Shown: positions 3,555 through 58,795 of the stretch, in pieces
How the letters are laid out: each line of letters starts with the position of its first letter
Numbering within the stretch: the first letter of the stretch is position 1
Virus record (IMG/VR): IMGVR_UViG_3300023198_001252
Span: 1 to 64,000 of that record
Source of the DNA: a virus
Length of the DNA: 64,000 nucleotides
Strand: one strand, 5' to 3'
Made by a program: the position numbers and the translations under genes
Notes under the pieces: generated by a model
What the model saw: the letters and a program-made list of their open reading frames with translations, nothing else
Databases searched by the model: none
Told to the model about the DNA's origin: nothing

Positions 3555-4562
3555 TTAGTTTCTCTTTTTCTCTTGTAAAAATATAACTAATGCAAAAGAT
3601 AAAGGCGCAATAATATCGATAAATACTGCTGGAAATAATTGACTAAAAAATTGAAATAACTCACTATCTACCCAAGTGAAAATAGAAGCAATCCAGAGAT
3701 AAAAAGATTTAGGCTTATTATTTTTTTCAGTACTAACCCTATTATCCTTTAACATATTTTCAATCTTTGTTATAATCTCTTTTCTCTTTTCTCCTTCTAT
3801 TTTAATAGATTCATTTTTTAAATAAATTCTATAATTAGTATCTTTATATTGTTTACTAGAATCTTCATAACCTTTTAAAAAAGCCATTAAAACATTACGC
3901 TCTTCTCTAAGATTTGCAATTTCTATATTAATCTCAGTAACTTCTTTTTCCCAAAGTCCTAACAAGTTAGTATTATTAGTGTTTTCTTTATTCTCTTCAA
4001 TTACTAAAGCTGTATTAACTAATTTCTTTTCATATTGCCCTACCATTGTACAATACATAGAATACCCTGCAACAATTATCCATAATATAGAAAAAATAAT
4101 AACTAAAATATACTGTTTTCGTTTCTTAAAAATTATAATCATTTCAAAAGCAATTACCGAAAATAAACCAAAAGCAATAGATAATAGTAAAGATGATGTT
4201 TTTGTATATATTGTGCTTAAATGATTGTAGCTTAATTTTATTGATAAATAAGTAGTTAGTATACCAACTATAAAAATAATTATAGTAAAAATACTAACAA
4301 GGCCTACGCTCATAGTAGTATTACCAATACTAAAAGATAAAGATTCTTTAGATGCTTTTCCTAAATATTTCCATTTTTTACCTTCTTGTTTAATGTAATC
4401 GGCCTGTATAAGTTCATGTACAATTTTTCTAGTAGTGTGCTCATCAAAATCAAATTCCTGCATAACAGTTTTCCAACGAGGAAAACGATCTGTTTTTTTT
4501 ACTCTTGTTGCTATAAAATTATTTACCTTGTGTGTATTTCTTGTTAATTTTTCCTTTCGCAT
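3555..4562 (-). CDS. Membrane protein with N-terminal winged-helix domain
   Basis: A 335-aa protein. Residues ~1-70 form a winged helix-turn-helix (FPRWKTVMQEFDFDEHTTRK followed by a wing ending GKKWKYLGK). Three hydrophobic segments follow (e.g. VSIFTIIIFIVGILTTYLS), then a long charged coiled coil, then a fourth hydrophobic segment before EKKRN. Start at 4562 is chosen because AAGGGG precedes it; the longer ATG at 4595 has no SD. The gene is preceded by a consensus promoter and a palindromic operator-like site, so it may bind its own promoter from the membrane. Family unknown. Confidence 0.75.
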   Translation of the reverse strand: MRKEKLTRNTHKVNNFIATRVKKTDRFPRWKTVMQEFDFDEHTTRKIVHELIQADYIKQEGKKWKYLGKASKESLSFSIGNTTMSVGLVSIFTIIIFIVGILTTYLSIKLSYNHLSTIYTKTSSLLLSIAFGLFSVIAFEMIIIFKKRKQYILVIIFSILWIIVAGYSMYCTMVGQYEKKLVNTALVIEENKENTNNTNLLGLWEKEVTEINIEIANLREERNVLMAFLKGYEDSSKQYKDTNYRIYLKNESIKIEGEKRKEIITKIENMLKDNRVSTEKNNKPKSFYLWIASIFTWVDSELFQFFSQLFPAVFIDIIAPLSFALVIFLQEKKRN

Positions 4563-4592
4563 ATTAACCCCTTGTTCTATTTCTGTACTTAA

Positions 4593-4612
4593 CATATTTT
4601 AAAATACGTATG
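4593..4612 (-). promoter_or_regulatory. Operator-like palindrome downstream of -10
   Basis: CATACGTATTTTAAAATATG is an imperfect palindrome directly after the -10 box of the wHTH gene promoter. A perfect 26-bp version lies at the same distance from the promoter at 41718. Its position over the start site suggests repressor binding. Confidence 0.55.
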
Positions 4613-4617
4613 ATAAT

Positions 4618-4646
4618 ATAATAATACATTAAAAGTAAAAAGTCAA
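4618..4646 (-). promoter_or_regulatory. Promoter for the 3.0-4.6 kb operon
   Basis: TTGACT (4646-4641), 17-bp spacer, TATTAT (4623-4618). It matches the recurrent phage promoter consensus and is preceded by the usual A/T-rich upstream tract. Confidence 0.75.
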
Positions 4647-11900: not shown

Positions 11901-11929
11901 TCGACTTTTTAATTTTAATTTAGTATTAT
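11901..11929 (+). promoter_or_regulatory. Early promoter of the plus-strand module
   Basis: TCGACT (11901-11906), 17-bp spacer, TATTAT (11924-11929). Almost the same sequence, including the downstream palindrome, occurs at 23056. Confidence 0.7.
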
Positions 11930-13993: not shown

Positions 13994-14304
13994 ATTGAAC
14001 AAAAGTATTGACTTTTATAAAAAAGTTAGGAATATCGTATATAAATATGAGAAAGAAAATATCAACTTATGCAAAAGAAAACAATTTATCTTATATTTTT
14101 GTGACTGTGGGTTAGAAATTGATAGAGATTTAAATGCGTCTATAAATATTTGTAATGAATATTTTAAAAATAATTCGGTGGAGTACATCGAATACAATCA
14201 TGGAGAAACAATAAATCCTTGTAAAATTATTTATAATTTTTCAGGTAGTTTTAGTGAAGTGATTACCGAAAGTATTAACATTTGTTAAAACTTTTAGATA
14301 CTAT
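13982..14304 (+). mobile_element. MITE-like IS605 derivative, copy 1
   Basis: About 323 bp. The left end AGTATGAAGTAGATTGAAC is joined by internal deletion to the last ~210 bp of tnpB and the right end (AACTTTTAGATACTAT). Copy 2 (19309-19629) has the same deletion junction. The remaining ORF (13995-14288) keeps the tnpB tail GLEIDRDLNASINI (RuvC-III Asp) but no other catalytic part. The 3' portion where an omega-RNA would be encoded is intact. Confidence 0.75.
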
Positions 14305-41717: not shown

Positions 41718-41746
41718 TTGACTTTTTAATTTTAATTTAGTATTAT
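41718..41746 (+). promoter_or_regulatory. Plus-strand promoter inside the late region
   Basis: TTGACT (41718-41723), 17-bp spacer, TATTAT (41741-41746). It opposes the late operon and precedes no plus-strand ORF. Confidence 0.75.
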
Positions 41747-41750
41747 ATTA

Positions 41751-41776
41751 CCATACGTATTTTAAAATACGTATGG
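41751..41776. promoter_or_regulatory. Perfect 26-bp palindrome over start site
   Basis: CCATACGTATTTT followed by its reverse complement, 4 bp after the -10 box. It matches the operator-like site at 4593-4612 and may bind the same repressor. Confidence 0.6.
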
Positions 41777-41920
41777 GTTGGTTCTACAACCTTAAGGTGA
41801 GATGGATTACTTTTTAAAAGTAATTATACTCACTAATCTGTACAATAAGTACAGAAATAGAACAGGCCTATAATACTATTAGACCTTATTCTTAAAGGGT
41901 TTTCTAGTGTTTTTACATTT
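41752..41920 (+). ncRNA. Structured RNA, family copy A
   Basis: Core 41776-41854. Hairpin 1 is GGTTG-GTTCTA-CAACC. Hairpin 2 is GTGAG/CTCAC plus an 8-bp ATTACTTT/AAAGTAAT extension. Hairpin 3 is CTGTAC-AATAA-GTACAG. The block CCTTAAGGTGAGATGG and the block ACTCACTAATCT recur in the same order on the minus strand at 55403-55459, where hairpin 1 has compensatory changes. It has a dedicated promoter. A CCTT/AAGG stem with T-rich tail near 41885-41915 may end it. This is the only content of the 254-nt gap between genes. Confidence 0.6.
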
Positions 41921-41922
41921 TA

Positions 41923-42918
41923 TTAACTTATAGCTAGATTTGTTATACTAGAATGTAATTTTTCGTTCGCCCAATCAATGCCAATTTGGCCATATACCTG
42001 TCTTTTTTCAGAAGCACCGGATTTATCCATTGGTTCATCAAATAATCTACCTTTTCCCGGTACAGTACAAAATACAGGTTTAACAAGATTTAAAGCTGCA
42101 AGTAATATAGTACTAGTTGGAACCATTGATTCATATACCACTCCAACCTCACCAAAATCAGTAAGAATAGTTCTTACATCTACACCACCAACATTCCATG
42201 ATTCAGGCTGGTAGCCATAAATACTTGATATTGCTTGTTTTTGAAATGAGTTCATAAATAAAATAGGTGTATTTTGATAAGTTTGACCACCGGAAGTATC
42301 TACTGCAAGTTTAAACATTGCTTGTAAAATACCCCTGTCTAAAGCTGCACCACCGGCAGCAATTGTAGAAGTTGTAATACCTGGAATAATTCCACCGGTT
42401 TGTGCTGCTACTGTGTTAGAAGTAGATTCAACAAATGTACCATTAAGGAAAGTATAATTCATATCTCTTGCAATTTTTTTTAAAGTATATGCTAAATTTT
42501 TAGCTTCTAATGCTGCTTGGTTATTCACATTTTCTTGAGCCCAATAACCTACACCTGTATGTACAACATCCGTGGCTCTACGTTCAGTAGTAGATAATTT
42601 CTTATATGAAATATCAATAGCCTCCTGAACAATTTGACAAGTGTTTCTAATTTGTGTGTATATTGGGGAGGTTGCTGCTGGTGCTGTGTTAGCAGCACTT
42701 TCTGAAATTGAAGGTTGTGCTGCTGCTGGAAAATCATATTCTGCTGTCATTGCAAAATCAAAATCTGCAACTTCTCTTGCATTACCCCCATTTAGCCCAC
42801 CTAGCATTGTTAAAAAAGGTGTACCTGTTCCCTGTCCGGGTGTCACGTCTGCTGTCCAAAGATCCCCATCATAATTAGGAGAATTCCAATAATCTGCTTG
42901 TCCTGATACTTGTGCCAT
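41923..42918 (-). CDS. Major capsid protein
   Basis: A 331-aa protein, start at 42918 after GGAGG. Segments SGQADYWNSPNYDGDLWTAD, EAIDISYKKLSTTERRA and LAYTLKKIARDMNYTFLNGT fit the SU10/DUF5309 capsid family with an HK97 fold. Located directly after the scaffold gene. Confidence 0.8.
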   Translation of the reverse strand: MAQVSGQADYWNSPNYDGDLWTADVTPGQGTGTPFLTMLGGLNGGNAREVADFDFAMTAEYDFPAAAQPSISESAANTAPAATSPIYTQIRNTCQIVQEAIDISYKKLSTTERRATDVVHTGVGYWAQENVNNQAALEAKNLAYTLKKIARDMNYTFLNGTFVESTSNTVAAQTGGIIPGITTSTIAAGGAALDRGILQAMFKLAVDTSGGQTYQNTPILFMNSFQKQAISSIYGYQPESWNVGGVDVRTILTDFGEVGVVYESMVPTSTILLAALNLVKPVFCTVPGKGRLFDEPMDKSGASEKRQVYGQIGIDWANEKLHSSITNLAIS

Positions 42919-52612: not shown

Positions 52613-55165
52613 TTATCCTACACTATGCTTTATACTTTTTTGTATCATTGGTCTATGCAGTAATCTATAGCCCGATTCATCCGCACAATTAGATACTACT
52701 ATTCCGTGTTCTATACAAAATCTTTCATGTGTAGGAACTGTTAAACAATATACATCCTCATTAGATATGCTTTCTCTTTTTATCAAATGTACTAAATTTT
52801 GTTTATTTTTTTTTAATTTAACTAAGAAGAATTTATCTTCTTTTATTCTAATTGCATCGGCTCTTATCCATTTCTGACCTGTATAAAATAAATGGTCTGG
52901 TGTACATTTAATTCTCATACCATCAGAAAAATATAATTTTATAACTTTTTTATTTTCCCCTACTAGTCTACAATTTCTATATTTTTGATAACCGCTATCT
53001 GTTAATACTTTACCCTTTGTATTTACTAAATCTTTTATAGCAATTTTACCTTTAGTAGTAATTACTTTAGTGTCCCCTGTAAAGCAGTGGTCTTCTTCAT
53101 CTGTGTTTGAAACTAAAATATTATTTGCGTAATACAATCCTGCTTTTTCGGTTACAAGATTGTAAACCGTTTTTTTATCTTTTATATTTTCAATACTAGT
53201 TATACTTATATTTTTAATACTCACATTATAACATTTATCAGAATATAGTTTAAAAAAATCATCAGTGATATTATCTTTATATTCTTTAGATATATTCACA
53301 ATTCTTATCTTCTCTATAATCTCTATTATTTCATTACGTGCTACTTTTTTATTTTTTTTATTTAATAGAATATCTTTGTCTAAATAAGATGAAAATAAAA
53401 TAAAAGGAATTGTAGCAAAAACACTTAAATAATTAATATTCAACTTATAAGCCAACATACTTTTTGATTTATTCCATTGTACTTTTTCTAGTGTACTATT
53501 TATTTTTAAATCCTTTAACGCTATTAACCCTTTTCCCGGAACATGTATCTTATGATTTGGTGTACCTTCTAAACTTTCACCATTTGAAAAAGTTACTTTT
53601 ATTGTTTTACTCATTCCACTGCAAATCGATTTTTTAACTTTACATAATCCTATTGGAGTATAAACTAAATCCTTTTTTGTAACATCTTCAATATTTTTAA
53701 GTTCTTTTTCAGTTTGAACTTTGGTACCGGCAATAAAACAATTAATATCATCAGGATCTTTGTCATCTCTTCCCAATATTGGAACAGTTCTAATAAAAGC
53801 TTTACAATCTTCTGTAACAAATAATCCAGGATCCTCCATTGGGAATTTTAAAGCATCTTTAAACATTGTCCGCATTTTTTCCCATCTTCTCTTCCTACTA
53901 CCAGGAGATTTATCAGCTTTTACAAAAATATGATTAGTTCTAGTATTTCCATAACCTTCATTAAGTAATTCAGCTATACTATCATTTTTATGATCTGCGT
54001 CAAATATAGAAGAGTCTCCAGGGCCAGGATTTATTTTAATAATATTAAATGCTTTTTTAATGTGTTGCTCTATTTTTTGAATACCTCTACCTATTTCTTT
54101 AGATGTTAATCTCAATCCTTTATTTTCTAGATTTGGTTGACAGCCATACCATTCCCAAAATCTAATTAATGTACCTTTTGGAAATGTTTTTTGTGCTAAT
54201 TTTTCTATATAAGATCCATCTAATTGTTTAATTTTATATATAATCGAAATAGGAGATCCATCTGTCATAGCCCAATAGCCTACAGAAAAAGGCTTCGATT
54301 GTCCATAGTCGAAAGACCTATCTATGTACCAGGTATTAGGTATATTTATTCTAGGTAAAATGTGTACTTCTTTATCCCATACATCATCAAACATGCCACC
54401 AGCTACAATATCCCATGAACCTTCAATCCATGCTTTCCTTATATTTGGATTTTTATTTTGTTCTAAATTTATCTCATACTCAGGATCATTATCTATAAAT
54501 ATTTTATTCTCAGATCTACTACTATGTATGTAACAACGTTCACGAATCATTTCTTTTTTTGTGTTAGGGTTTTCTAACTTTTCTTCTATTACTTCACATG
54601 ATTGATTTTCCGTTATTTTAAATCTTTTTTTAACCCAAAAATGCCCTTTTCCCCATGGATTACAAGTAGATCTAATCATTTTAGGTATCTCAGGATGTGA
54701 GGATCTGCAAATAGAAAACATCATGAGATATAACTCGTCTGTTCTCCAATTAGTTAATTCTTCCCAGCCGATAAAAGGATATGCATGTCCATGATAATTC
54801 CAATAATCATCAAGCCTGTTTGCATATCTAAAATAAAGTACCTCACCTTTTGGAAAAGTCCATTTATAATCAGAAGAATTAAATATCGCTTTTGGAAAAA
54901 TTTGTTTAAACCACTTTAAACTTTTTATCTTTATATCTTCTAAATTTTTATACGTTTCTCGAAAAATTATACCACGCCATTCAGCGCCATAACCTTTCCC
55001 AACATGCTGTAAGAAATTCATTAAAAGTGCATCGGATTTTCCACCTGACCTATTCCCTTCTACTAGTACTTCAAATATAGGGCATTGTAGTAATAGGTCT
55101 TGAGCACCGGGATTAGGTTGCCAAATAACATTAATTTCTTTATTTAGTGTAGTATTATTATTCAT
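52613..55165 (-). CDS. terL: Large terminase subunit with two inteins
   Basis: 850-aa precursor. ATPase: Walker A EGNRSGGKSDA (~residues 37-47), Walker B FIGWEE, coupling motif STCNPWG. Nuclease: DRSFDYG and DADHKND. Near the C-terminus two inteins interrupt DDIN/TDEEDH/CADESGYRL, which after splicing gives the nuclease motif III region DDINTDEEDHCADE. Mature length ~505 aa. Start ATG at 55165 has no SD, but the -10 box of a good promoter ends 8 nt upstream, implying a leaderless mRNA. An in-frame GTG at 55183 overlaps that promoter. Confidence 0.9.
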   Translation of the reverse strand: MNNNTTLNKEINVIWQPNPGAQDLLLQCPIFEVLVEGNRSGGKSDALLMNFLQHVGKGYGAEWRGIIFRETYKNLEDIKIKSLKWFKQIFPKAIFNSSDYKWTFPKGEVLYFRYANRLDDYWNYHGHAYPFIGWEELTNWRTDELYLMMFSICRSSHPEIPKMIRSTCNPWGKGHFWVKKRFKITENQSCEVIEEKLENPNTKKEMIRERCYIHSSRSENKIFIDNDPEYEINLEQNKNPNIRKAWIEGSWDIVAGGMFDDVWDKEVHILPRINIPNTWYIDRSFDYGQSKPFSVGYWAMTDGSPISIIYKIKQLDGSYIEKLAQKTFPKGTLIRFWEWYGCQPNLENKGLRLTSKEIGRGIQKIEQHIKKAFNIIKINPGPGDSSIFDADHKNDSIAELLNEGYGNTRTNHIFVKADKSPGSRKRRWEKMRTMFKDALKFPMEDPGLFVTEDCKAFIRTVPILGRDDKDPDDINCFIAGTKVQTEKELKNIEDVTKKDLVYTPIGLCKVKKSICSGMSKTIKVTFSNGESLEGTPNHKIHVPGKGLIALKDLKINSTLEKVQWNKSKSMLAYKLNINYLSVFATIPFILFSSYLDKDILLNKKNKKVARNEIIEIIEKIRIVNISKEYKDNITDDFFKLYSDKCYNVSIKNISITSIENIKDKKTVYNLVTEKAGLYYANNILVSNTDEEDHCFTGDTKVITTKGKIAIKDLVNTKGKVLTDSGYQKYRNCRLVGENKKVIKLYFSDGMRIKCTPDHLFYTGQKWIRADAIRIKEDKFFLVKLKKNKQNLVHLIKRESISNEDVYCLTVPTHERFCIEHGIVVSNCADESGYRLLHRPMIQKSIKHSVG
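52688..53086 (-). other. Intein 2 in terminase (133 aa)
   Basis: Starts CFTGDTKV (block A), has CTPDHLFYT (block B, T-x-x-H), then VYCLTVPTHERFCIEHGIVV and ends VSN before Cys+1. The length leaves no room for an endonuclease domain: a mini-intein. The penultimate residue is Ser instead of His. Confidence 0.85.
53105..53740 (-). other. Intein 1 in terminase (212 aa)
   Basis: Starts CFIAGTKV, block B GTPNHKIHV, ends TVYNLVTEKAGLYYANNILV then SN before Thr+1. About 75 residues between the splicing halves have no LAGLIDADG or HNH motif and may be a decayed endonuclease. The penultimate residue is again Ser. Confidence 0.85.
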
Positions 55166-55173
55166 TGATTTGT

Positions 55174-55202
55174 AATATAACACAATATTTTATTAATTGC
55201 AA
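55174..55202 (-). promoter_or_regulatory. Terminase promoter (leaderless start)
   Basis: TTGCAA (55202-55197), 17-bp spacer, TATATT (55179-55174), 8 nt before the terminase ATG. Confidence 0.55.
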
Positions 55203-55213
55203 GTATGAGATTT

Positions 55214-55591
55214 TGTTTCAATCCTTATTTTATCGTATTAGCTACTTCACCCCTTTTTGACACTTTTCCGCACACTTTTGATATGTAAAAACATGAGAAA
55301 AACGCTAAATAATTACAAATACGGCTTGATATAACATTTCGGTTTTTACCGAACTCAAAAATCACCTATAGCAATATTTCGGTTTTTACTAAACATAAAA
55401 TAAGATTAGTGAGTACAATTCTTTCGATACCATCTCACCTTAAGGACGTAAAACCGCCCCACATGTATACAACATGTTTATTACGTGAAAATTCTTTTAC
55501 ACCCCCTTTGACAATAATGATTATTCACTTGTTACGTTTCAATCATTATTTTCTATGTATAGTACTTGTTTGTTTCAATCTTTACTCTCTA
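55214..55591 (-). ncRNA. Transcribed non-coding locus: repeats plus RNA copy B
   Basis: Fills the 460-nt gene-free stretch between terminase and the tnpB-like gene. On the minus strand, from the promoter at 55600: two 36-nt-spaced repeats ending GATTGAAAC (at 55572 and 55536) and the structured core B (55403-55459: GGGCG-GTTTTA-CGTCC hairpin, CCTTAAGGTGAGATGG, ACTCACTAATCT). Then come two 40-nt-spaced GTAAAAACCGAAAT units (55390-55336; one forms TTCGG/CCGAA) and a third GATTGAAAC end at 55214. No ORF of note. Confidence 0.5.
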
Positions 55592-55599
55592 CAATAATA

Positions 55600-55628
55600 A
55601 TTGTAGCAAAATCAGTATAATAAGTCAA
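55600..55628 (-). promoter_or_regulatory. Promoter of the 55.2-55.6 kb RNA locus
   Basis: TTGACT (55628-55623), 17-bp spacer, TACAAT (55605-55600), between the 3' end of the tnpB-like gene and the repeats. A strong match to the phage consensus. Confidence 0.75.
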
Positions 55629-55643
55629 GTATTATTTTAATTA

Positions 55644-56835
55644 TTATACAACCTTCACCGACTGAGCAATATTAACAGCAGCGTTATAATCTCGATCAAG
55701 TTCCTCATTACATTCAGGGCATATATATTTCCTGTCACTTATTTTAATTTCCTTATTGATAAATCCACACTTATTACATGTTTTTGTAGTATTTTTAGGA
55801 TTAACATATACAGTAGCTATCCCATTCATTTTAGCTTTATACTCAATGTAACTTTGTAATTCATAATAAGTCCAATTCCTTCTAACCCATTCATTCTTTT
55901 TATCCGGCATTTTTTCAATTAAACTCAATTTTTCAAGTTTAATAATCCTGGCTTTATGCCTTAATGCAAATTTTATAATTTCACAACTTACTCGATGGTT
56001 TACTGTTTTTACAAAATTACGTTCTTTGTTTTTAAATTTTTCAATTACTTTTGTTTTCTTTTTTCGGCCTTTGCCTCCATGTGCAATTTTTATGTTTCTT
56101 TGCATTTGCTTTAACTGTTTTTGTAGACGTTGTCTAGTAATATAATAACTTTCATTATTATTCTTATGTCCTCCAATAAATGCACGTTGTAGCCCCTTAG
56201 ATAATGCACAAACTGCTAATGTAGAGATTCCAATATCTACACCTACGCTTAATGTAGAATCTAGTTTATTAGGTGTAACTGGAATATCTACACAAAGATT
56301 AAGGAACCATTTATTTTTAGTTTTATGATGTTGGATAGAAGAGCCACACGCTTTATAGTTACCTTCTATGATTTGTTCTATAATGTACTGGTTATTTGAT
56401 TTATCCCTTCCAAACTTTAAATTAAATTTAATCTTTTCTTGCCATTTTAAATGTATTTCTTTATCTATTTGTATAAAAGGTTTACCTTCTTTTGTAAATG
56501 GAAAATAAATAGGAAATCCAAGCCTTCTATAATTTCTTAAACTTCTATCACCTCTTAAAATTTCTTTTATGTCTGCTTTAAATTGCCCTTGAATATTTTG
56601 AGCAATACAAGCTCTTATAGCTGTTTGATATTTTATAGGAAATATTCTGTGCTGAACCTGAATTATATAAAGACTTTACATAATCATTTATAATTTTTTT
56701 ATCTTCTTCAACATTTTCTTTTATTTTATTTGTTAATTTTAAATTCATATATAAATCAGACATAATCCCATTCGCTAATGTATATGAATTATAAGATAAA
56801 TCATGTAATCTTTTATGGTAACTATATATATTCAT
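55644..56835 (-). pseudogene. Cas12f/TnpB-like nuclease gene with one frameshift
   Basis: The N-terminal part (56835 to ~56645, MNIYSYHKRLHDLSYNSYTL..SLYNSGSAQ) and the rest (RIFPIKYQTAIRACIAQNIQ... to 55644) lie in different frames. Total ~395 aa. Catalytic residues are intact: RuvC-I Asp (VGVDIGISTLAV), RuvC-II Glu (IIKLEKLSLI), zinc finger (CNKCG...CPEC), RuvC-III Asp (ELDRDYNAAVNIAQ). The block RNIKIAHGGKGRKKK and RNFVKTVNHRVSCEIIKFAL resembles the compact Cas12f/type V-U branch more than the IS605 remnants at 14-19 kb. The 3' part from 56105 has its own ATG. Confidence 0.7.
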
Positions 56836-56898: not shown

Positions 56899-57714
56899 TT
56901 AATCAATAATTGTTTTAGTGGTGCCTTTTGGAAGCTCTGCTATAACTTTTTTTAGATATGGTAATATGCTTTTATCTTTTTTAGAGAAATAATCGAGTCC
57001 TTTTTGCTGTAGCCAAATTTGATTGAAATATAATCGAAATTCCGTTATTATTTCATTTGGGTATAACCTTGCATATACGGGAGCTCTTTTTCCGTCATCA
57101 AATTCATGCCGATATGAAGGGAAATTATCAGGTTCATATCCATTATCTCTACACCATTTTGAGAACATTCTTCCCATAGAAATATCAGGCATTAAGTTGG
57201 TCGGCAAAATATAGCCGTGTTGTTCTAACGGCGCGACAAGTCGAAGAGTCATTTCGTCTAACATTGAAAAGTGCGTATGTGGAATTCTAGATCTATTTAT
57301 TAAGTAACGTCTAATGTGATAAGGAATTTTATACTGTGTTTTTTGAGTTCCTTCCATCCATTCAAATACCCATTTAGAAACTAAATTTGCAAATTTTGCA
57401 GAAGCCCATTGCCCTAAATTTACAGCAACTCGAGGATGTACCCATGTACCCTGTTCTTTTTTGCGGTTTCCACCTTTAACCTTTTGAACTAATTCCGATA
57501 TGGGAATTCCCATATCGGAAGACACCTCTTCTAAAAACTCATTAGTATTCTTAAGTCTATCATAGTCTGCATATTTTTTACCACATGCTGTACACAATTC
57601 TGTAGCATTAATGTACCCGTCATACGCTCTTTGGTTTATTCTTACTGTGTCTACTTCATGTTCAATAAATGGTAATAATCCCTGTCCTGTCTCATCAAAT
57701 TTAATTTCGCTAAT
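56899..57714 (-). CDS. KilA-N domain protein, probable AUU start
   Basis: 271 aa. KilA-N domain in the N-terminal half (VRINQRAYDGYINATELCTA...GTWVHPRVAVNLGQWASAKF). The C-terminal domain has YHIRRYLINRSRIPHTHFSM and MGRMFSKWCRDNGYEPD. KilA-N binds DNA in phage regulators. The consensus promoter's start site lies downstream of every ATG/GTG/TTG that could include the domain. A perfect AGGAGG is followed 6 nt later by ATT (57714). A longer ATG frame (57843) begins upstream of the promoter and would read through it. Confidence 0.75.
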   Translation of the reverse strand: MSEIKFDETGQGLLPFIEHEVDTVRINQRAYDGYINATELCTACGKKYADYDRLKNTNEFLEEVSSDMGIPISELVQKVKGGNRKKEQGTWVHPRVAVNLGQWASAKFANLVSKWVFEWMEGTQKTQYKIPYHIRRYLINRSRIPHTHFSMLDEMTLRLVAPLEQHGYILPTNLMPDISMGRMFSKWCRDNGYEPDNFPSYRHEFDDGKRAPVYARLYPNEIITEFRLYFNQIWLQQKGLDYFSKKDKSILPYLKKVIAELPKGTTKTIID

Positions 57715-57751
57715 AATGTACCTCCTAGTACTTTTATTGTTTTGTGTATTT

Positions 57752-57780
57752 ATTATACCAATAGCAAATACAAAAGTCAA
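57752..57780 (-). promoter_or_regulatory. Consensus promoter of KilA-N gene
   Basis: TTGACT (57780-57775), 17-bp spacer, TATAAT (57757-57752): the best match to the sigma-70 consensus in the window. Confidence 0.85.
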
Positions 57781-57889
57781 ATTTATTATGTTTATTTTCT
57801 TAAAATTATTTTTATAGTTTTTAAACTTTTTATAAAGTGACACTATATGTCACCACTCCGGTATTATATTATATATAAGGAGTTGTTAA

Positions 57890-58795
57890 ATGTTTGATTT
57901 GTTAAAATTTGAGAGTATATTACAGTTAATAGAAGCTTTCCCAACTGAATTAAGTTGTTATATCTACTTAGAATCTCTTTTATGGTATGATGGGATTGTA
58001 TGTCCTCATTGTGGATCTACTCATAAGTTTTGGAGACTCAAAGATCAAAGAATGCTTAAATGTTCAGTATGTAAAATGAGGTTTACAGTTAAAACCGGTA
58101 CTGTATTTGAAGAAACTCGTTTATCACTTCGTAAATGGTTTGTAGCTATCTTTTTAATCAGTGTACATTCTAAAGGCATTTCAAGCGTTCAATTATCAAA
58201 GGATTTAAGAATTACACAAAAAACAGCATGGTTTTTAAATCATAGAATTCGTTTCATAATGAACTCATTTAATGAAGGTGAAAAATTAACCGGTATTATC
58301 GAAGTTGATGAACATTATGCCGGTGGAGTTGAAAAGAATAAACACACAGACAAAAAGACACCCAATAATCAAGGCCGTTCTACAAAGACTAAAACTGCCG
58401 TATTTGGTATGGTTGAAAGAGCGGAAAAAGACGAAAGTGGTAATAAAATAAAAAATGCAAAAGTAATTGCTTATAAAGTTGATAATGTAAAGACTAAAAC
58501 CTTAACCAATGAAATTGAAAACAATGTAGAAGCTGGCGCAAAAGTAATGAGTGACGAATATCAAAGTTACCGAAAATTAGGCTATACTTTTAAACACCAA
58601 TATATAAGACATAACAGTGCTGAATACGTAAGAGGAAATGTACACACAAACACAATAGAGGGATTTTGGGGACTGTTTAAGAGGATGTTTATAGGTATCT
58701 ATCATTTAATGAGTAATAAGCATATAAACCGCTATTTATCAGCTTTAGCCTTTAGGTATAATATTATCATCCTTATTTTCTTATACCTTACCTAG
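57890..58795 (+). mobile_element. IS1595-family (ISXO2-like) transposase
   Basis: 301 aa. N-terminal zinc ribbon (CPHCGS...CSVCKMRFTVKTGT), then the DDE-type core: EVDEHYAGG (first Asp), VMSDEYQSY (second Asp), TNTIEGFWGLFKR (Glu or equivalent). SD AAGGAG. Upstream, GTGACA/TGTCAC (57837-57853) may be part of the left end. After FRYN the sequence departs from the family and runs into host-like repeat DNA, so the right end seems lost. The only plus-strand gene of this region. Confidence 0.8.

Follow-up and report, generated by a model that had tools for sequence, protein, structure and literature searches.

Two structured RNAs of a phage as probable guide-RNA scaffolds for a Cas12f1-type nuclease

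Introduction

What are the two small structured RNAs, here called A and B, that this phage genome carries on opposite strands? The window analyzed is a stretch of 64,000 nucleotides (positions 1 to 64,000 of the IMG/VR record IMGVR_UViG_3300023198_001252), and an earlier note, made from its letters alone, had described the pair as a structured RNA family of no recognized class. Here, we propose that both are guide-RNA scaffolds (tracrRNAs) for a phage-carried, RNA-guided nuclease of the Cas12f1 type, a reading to which we give a probability of about 0.88 and by which a formerly unexplained orphan RNA becomes a recognizable guide RNA. The class in question, the tracrRNA or guide-RNA scaffold of type V-F (Cas12f1) CRISPR systems, has already been described and has been solved with its protein in other lineages. 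The identification draws on membership in an RNA family, conservation of the stems, covariation between loop and repeat, an adjoining cas12f remnant, and detached single-repeat copies elsewhere; that the RNAs are transcribed, load Cas12f, and direct it to targets we infer.

In the solved Cas12f sgRNA, the 6-nt loop (positions 78-83) of a 5-bp stem (stem 3) base-pairs with the repeat (AR:R1); stem 4 and a second anti-repeat (AR:R2) follow, and the repeat part is 17 nt long (PMC8053092). Cas12f tracrRNAs are well known, as is the approach of predicting them from anti-repeats (PMC10090079, PMC13186708), and RNA anti-CRISPRs have also been described (PMC10651486).

Results

Both cores lie where the earlier note had placed them (A at 41776-41839 on the plus strand, B at 55459-55403 on the minus strand), and each has the promoter that had been claimed for it. 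RNA A sits at the border of the capsid gene (MCP), antisense to it and 13.8 kb from the effector gene, and comprises the following features.

41718..41746, plus strand: promoter of A by sequence, TTGACT-17-TATTAT, of a promoter family that recurs in the phage
41751..41776, plus strand: P0, a 26-bp perfect palindrome or 5' hairpin, optional in the family
41776..41791, plus strand: P1, corresponding to Cas12f "stem 3", GGTTG / loop GTTCTA / CAACC
41796..41834, plus strand: P2, corresponding to Cas12f "stem 4", GGTGAG...A bulge...CTCACT, with variable inner hairpin ATTACTTTTTAAAAGTAAT
41835..41863, plus strand: fused anti-repeat/repeat, TCTGTAC-AATAA-GTACAGA
41847-41863, plus strand: 17-nt repeat, AAGTACAGAAATAGAAC
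41864..41884, plus strand: putative guide (spacer), AGGCCTATAATACTATTAGAC

Folding gave strong support to the drawn strand of A, with z = -7.6 over 116 nt and -5.4 for the core, and with a clear 7-bp fused stem between repeat and anti-repeat that would correspond to AR:R2. The P1 loop is complementary at six of six positions (GUUCUA/UAGAAC) to a UAGAAC at 41858-41863, which follows the loop by about 70 nt within this RNA and ends the 17-nt repeat-like stretch. Since A carries its own fused repeat, with matching loop and repeat end, it reads as a natural single-guide RNA. Its guide has no second copy in the phage and no convincing target outside it; a 17-mer of this guide in two IMG/VR contigs was treated as a chance occurrence, given that the match ends at 17-18 nt and that the 5' flanks are not C-rich.

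A broken cas12f1-like gene stands 184 nt upstream of RNA B on the same strand, and the region has the following arrangement.

55644..56835, minus strand: cas12f1-like gene remnant, with the RuvC/Zn-ribbon part in one frame (55644 to about 56650) and the N-terminal part in another (about 56660-56835)
55600..55628, minus strand: promoter of region B, TTGACT-17-TACAAT
55572..55593, minus strand: degenerate repeat R1, TGTAGAGAGTAAAGATTGAAAC
55536..55557, minus strand: degenerate repeat R2, CATAGAAAATAATGATTGAAAC, 36 nt from repeat R1
55444..55459, minus strand: P1 of B, GGGCG / loop GTTTTA / CGTCC
55408..55439, minus strand: P2 of B, GGTGAG...A...CTCACT
55389..55407, minus strand: anti-repeat of B, AATCTTATTTTATGTTTAG, complementary to repeats R3 and R2
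55215..55236, minus strand: degenerate repeat R3, ACGATAAAATAAGGATTGAAAC, just upstream of terL

The gene beside B is the only one of its kind in the 75,033-base record. Its protein (55647-56651, minus strand) matches the PADLOC Cas12f profile at 4.6e-85, as well as Pfam Cas12f1-like_TNB and NCBIfam guided_TnpB, and the RuvC catalytic residues and Zn-ribbon cysteines align. The closest solved protein is PDB 8hr5 (E 1.9e-59), which we take to be the Clostridium novyi Cas12f1, and further Cas12f entries of the PDB match too. In contrast to 8hr5, the phage gene lacks the codons for the first ~29 residues, and a frameshift separates the N-terminal homology from the rest, so no intact Cas12f was found in this phage. 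A KilA-N domain gene (56899-57843, minus strand) and an IS1595-type transposase gene (57890-58795, plus strand) adjoin the truncated cas12f.

The motif GATTGAAAC, three of whose four genome copies lie around B on its strand, forms the ends of three similar 22-nt units, the degenerate repeats R1 to R3. These are spaced 36 nt and about 320 nt apart, as against a period of ~65 nt in many relatives, and the distance from R1 to R2 leaves just 14 nt for a spacer, which, like the degeneracy of the array and the broken effector gene, counts against our preferred reading; there is precedent for such short spacing in locus L050, where repeats recur every 30-35 nt. The P1 loop of B (GUUUUA) fits the UGAAAC repeat ends with five pairs and one G.U, and the anti-repeat pairs with repeats R2 and R3 at -13.7 and -13.2 kcal/mol, which places it no higher than about the top 1% of random duplexes (1% of the null lies at -12.4) and is a further point against. 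Folding of B supports the drawn strand moderately, with a z of about -3 there and nothing on the opposite one. The guide of repeat R3 (from 55214) runs into a promoter-like region before terL, and searches with all guides of the phage found no targets, which likewise tells against our reading. The claim that no open reading frame follows either RNA holds for A, which has no gene behind it, and fails for B, where the gene for the large terminase subunit, terL (52613-55183), lies downstream on the same strand. The terL frame itself is broken up by intein-like segments (Pfam Intein_splicing, two stretches).

RNAs A and B are copies within the phage (75% identity, BLAST E 2.5e-8). Between them, the inner hairpin of P2 has wholly diverged, while the conserved blocks CCTTAAGGTGAGATGG and ACTCACTAATCT are identical and in the same order. 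P1 differs by the compensatory changes that had been described, from T-A to G.T at pair 3 and from T-A to C-G at pair 4, and the one-base difference between the loops follows from the different repeats of A and B. The best-conserved part is P2 (GGTGAG...CTCACT with a bulged A), which the earlier note had passed over. Because a gapped alignment of the whole A and B regions did not surpass those of randomly paired windows in this AT-rich genome, the case rests on the cores and on the model described below rather than on overall similarity. The two regions also share a tail, TTTTCTNNTGTTTTTACAT (41893-41925, plus strand; 55315-55275, minus strand), 50-110 nt after the core; we considered it as the anti-repeat and rejected it, as relatives have theirs directly after P2.

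Relatives of the Cas12f protein were gathered from plasmids, phages, and IMG/VR, and many of them adjoin an RNA with a 5-6-bp hairpin, a 6-nt loop, AAGG, and a GGTGAG/CTCACC stem. From 11 homologues that neighbor other Cas12f genes, with A and B left out, we built a covariance model (R1), which found only two matches in the 75-kb phage, namely B (39.8 bits, E 8.9e-9) and A (34.0 bits, E 3.3e-7). The same model found dozens of copies in Cas12f loci; its best score on 24 control loci was 12.3 bits (E 0.5), and it had no matches in nine unrelated viral records (G074-G082). The joint alignment including A and B had 93.3% of pair cells formed, two-sided changes at 10 of 15 pairs, and a covariation of 0.605 against 0.202 when shuffled, a level reached in none of 500 shuffles, and the result was the same without A and B. 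A structured RNA family with compensatory changes is thus well supported, and the ~50 homologous copies found dispose of the possibility, raised beforehand, that no further homologues exist. P0 occurs in 9 of 31 members against a background of 14%, and this mild enrichment means that it is not a defining part.

Other searches returned nothing of this kind. Rfam covariance models gave no match to A or B at the gathering score, and it is in this sense only that the RNAs are unrecognized, as the earlier note had it, since their class is in all probability that of the Cas12f guide-RNA scaffold; a tRNA search found none. Scans of IMG/VR and GTDB genomes for exact patterns from the A and B blocks gave chance hits only, as A resembles B more closely than either resembles any relative, and blastn searches of phages and plasmids with the cores yielded only AT-rich noise.

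The P1 loop and the repeat end change together across relatives. In a test on 31 copies, we looked within 600 nt downstream for the reverse complement of bases 2-6 of the loop and obtained 89 matches, against a mean of 40.6 and a maximum of 70 in 2000 permutations that swapped loops among loci. Loci with two scaffolds make the pattern explicit: L065 has different loops that match different repeats (AUUUCA with UGAAAC, ACUUCA with UGAAGU), as does L058 (ACUUUG with ACAAAG, AUUCGA with UCGAAC). A tracrRNA followed by arrays is seen in relatives L083, L052, L065, and L084.

Some Cas12f loci showed features of their own. In the Ruminococcus albus plasmid NC_014824, a Cas12f/TnpB relative has N for the first RuvC aspartate (GVNLG), so by its sequence it is possibly nuclease-dead, and a similar RNA lies downstream. 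Two identical Cas12f scaffolds flank cas12f in IMGVR_UViG_3300005910_000466, beside a type I-E-like repeat array (GTGTTACCCGCACGCGCGGGGATGAACC). Mini-arrays with a repeat period of 30-35 nt follow the scaffolds in L050 / G003, a 39.6-kb record with five scaffold copies.

Applied to whole records, covariance model R1 also revealed scaffolds distant from the effector in three further phage records, at 4.7 and 28 kb (G003), 38 and 43 kb (G020), and 28 kb (G007). In four of these five detached copies, a single repeat, the end of which fits the P1 loop, is followed by sequence running towards a gene start; loci L139-L142 are detached single-repeat copies in relatives. Of the two G020 copies, one immediately precedes the large terminase gene and the other sits at the portal/head-morphogenesis border. 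Within our phage, a related leader lacks the scaffold.

4573..4646, minus strand: leader of gene 3555-4595, with promoter, P0, and repeat (TAAGTACAGAAATAGAAC) as in A, without scaffold

This leader is either the remains of a deletion or a form of A that never received the insertion, and the shared elements imply that A or an ancestor moved or was deleted within the genome. A search for a sister phage by MCP found none, the best phage MCPs reaching about 30%, and a search for empty sites of the G020 insertions found no related phage.

Discussion

Beyond the assignment of A and B to a known class, the results suggest how the RNAs might work. By analogy with the solved complexes, P1 would position the crRNA through pairing of its six-base loop with the repeat end, P2 would be the protein-binding stem, and the bases after P2 would pair with the rest of the repeat as an anti-repeat. 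RNA B would then serve the surrounding degenerate repeats R1-R3 as their tracrRNA, while a single transcript from the promoter of A would give a complete single-guide RNA with its guide starting at 41864. The phage RNAs resemble the Un1Cas12f1 tracrRNA/sgRNA in the 5-bp stem with 6-nt loop, stem 4, the anti-repeat, and the 17-nt repeat (PMC8053092), but they have a shorter stem 4, no long stem 2, and a different sequence; further, A has its repeat fused in one transcript and lies far from the effector gene. Further parallels are the type V-F-like loci of the Bacillus arachidis plasmid NZ_CP127374 (L038) and of IMG/VR phages (L045-L110), in which scaffold, repeats, and anti-repeats stand beside cas12f as they do here, often with two or three scaffold copies, although many of these have regular arrays and their effector ORFs are longer.

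Whether the RNAs act today is a separate matter. Because the phage cas12f is broken in the assembly, either the RNAs are recent leftovers, or they serve an effector that the host or a different phage supplies, or a sequence error accounts for the break; they may also act as decoys. That A and B no longer function and merely survive from a decaying module, with A a drifted duplicate, is a sub-case of our explanation as regards identity and a rival to it as regards present function, and we regard it as a serious possibility at less than even odds. The truncated and frameshifted cas12f beside KilA-N and IS1595 genes, the degenerate repeats, and the leader at 4573 (minus strand), which resembles a deletion derivative, are all in line with decay, but identical blocks around a diverged inner hairpin, a compensated P1, and a loop in A that fits its own repeat at six of six positions point to retained constraint. 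Such pairing, kept in both copies despite the divergence within P2, argues for selection after duplication, not for activity today.

A decoy role would make A an RNA anti-CRISPR of the Racr kind, loading a Cas12f of the host or of a rival with a useless or hijacked guide. Like a Racr, A is stand-alone and repeat-bearing, has its own phage promoter, and lies away from cas genes, in keeping with the description of solitary repeats (PMC10651486), and this phage is without an intact effector. However, published Racrs mimic repeats, whereas A has a whole tracr scaffold plus repeat, and in G003 and G020 a cas12f ORF of the phage accompanies detached RNAs of this kind, making a decoy unlikely. We consider it quite unlikely that the RNAs belong to a TnpB transposon as its omegaRNA (reRNA), and not to a CRISPR-like system. 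The guided_TnpB label of the protein is consistent with that origin, Cas12f and TnpB intergrade, and the single-repeat copies resemble reRNAs, which likewise combine scaffold and guide from flanking DNA in a single RNA; however, no transposon or tnpA-like gene was recognized among the genes near B, the best profile and solved structures are those of Cas12f, and the architecture is one of anti-repeat and repeat, with separate repeat-spacer arrays in same-scaffold relatives (L083, L084, L052, L065). Finally, the position of B upstream of terL, and an AAGGTGAG-ATG that resembles a ribosome site sequestered in P2, could indicate a riboswitch-like or attenuator leader acting in cis on terL and its neighbors; this is highly improbable, as A and B do not share a reading frame after the ATG, A is without a gene behind it, and the homologues track Cas12f genes and their loops the CRISPR repeat.

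If A and B are Cas12f guide-RNA scaffolds, then several phages encode Cas12f guides far from the effector, some of them beside packaging and head genes. We saw no report of detached natural Cas12f single-guide RNAs in phages in the literature consulted, which was mostly freely accessible. TnpB reads its guide from flanking DNA. By analogy with TnpB, and from the positions of the copies, one might speculate that phages disperse stand-alone Cas12f single-guide genes to terL, portal, and MCP borders, where a guide taken from the flanking phage DNA would cut the "empty" site of competitors while the phage's own site, with the repeat in place of the PAM, would be spared. We hold this scenario to be doubtful; if true, it would amount to homing, or to competition between phages, with guide RNA as the sole means. 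Natural Cas12f single-guide RNAs would be useful templates for compact genome editors, and the covariance model together with the rule linking P1 loop and repeat end can find Cas12f guide RNAs where no array is visible.

Two further observations concern repeated elements of this phage. At 11903 and 23056 (plus strand), copies of the phage promoter precede genes, with a 5' leader hairpin (GCTTGTAAGGGGTTACAAGC) common to both in between, which may be a conserved mRNA leader. Four copies of a long, near-identical repeat (TAATTCGGTGGAGTACATCGAATACAATCATGGAGAAACAATAAATCCTTG...) are present, at 14186, 17366, and 19511 of the window (plus strand) and at 70726 of the full record (minus strand).
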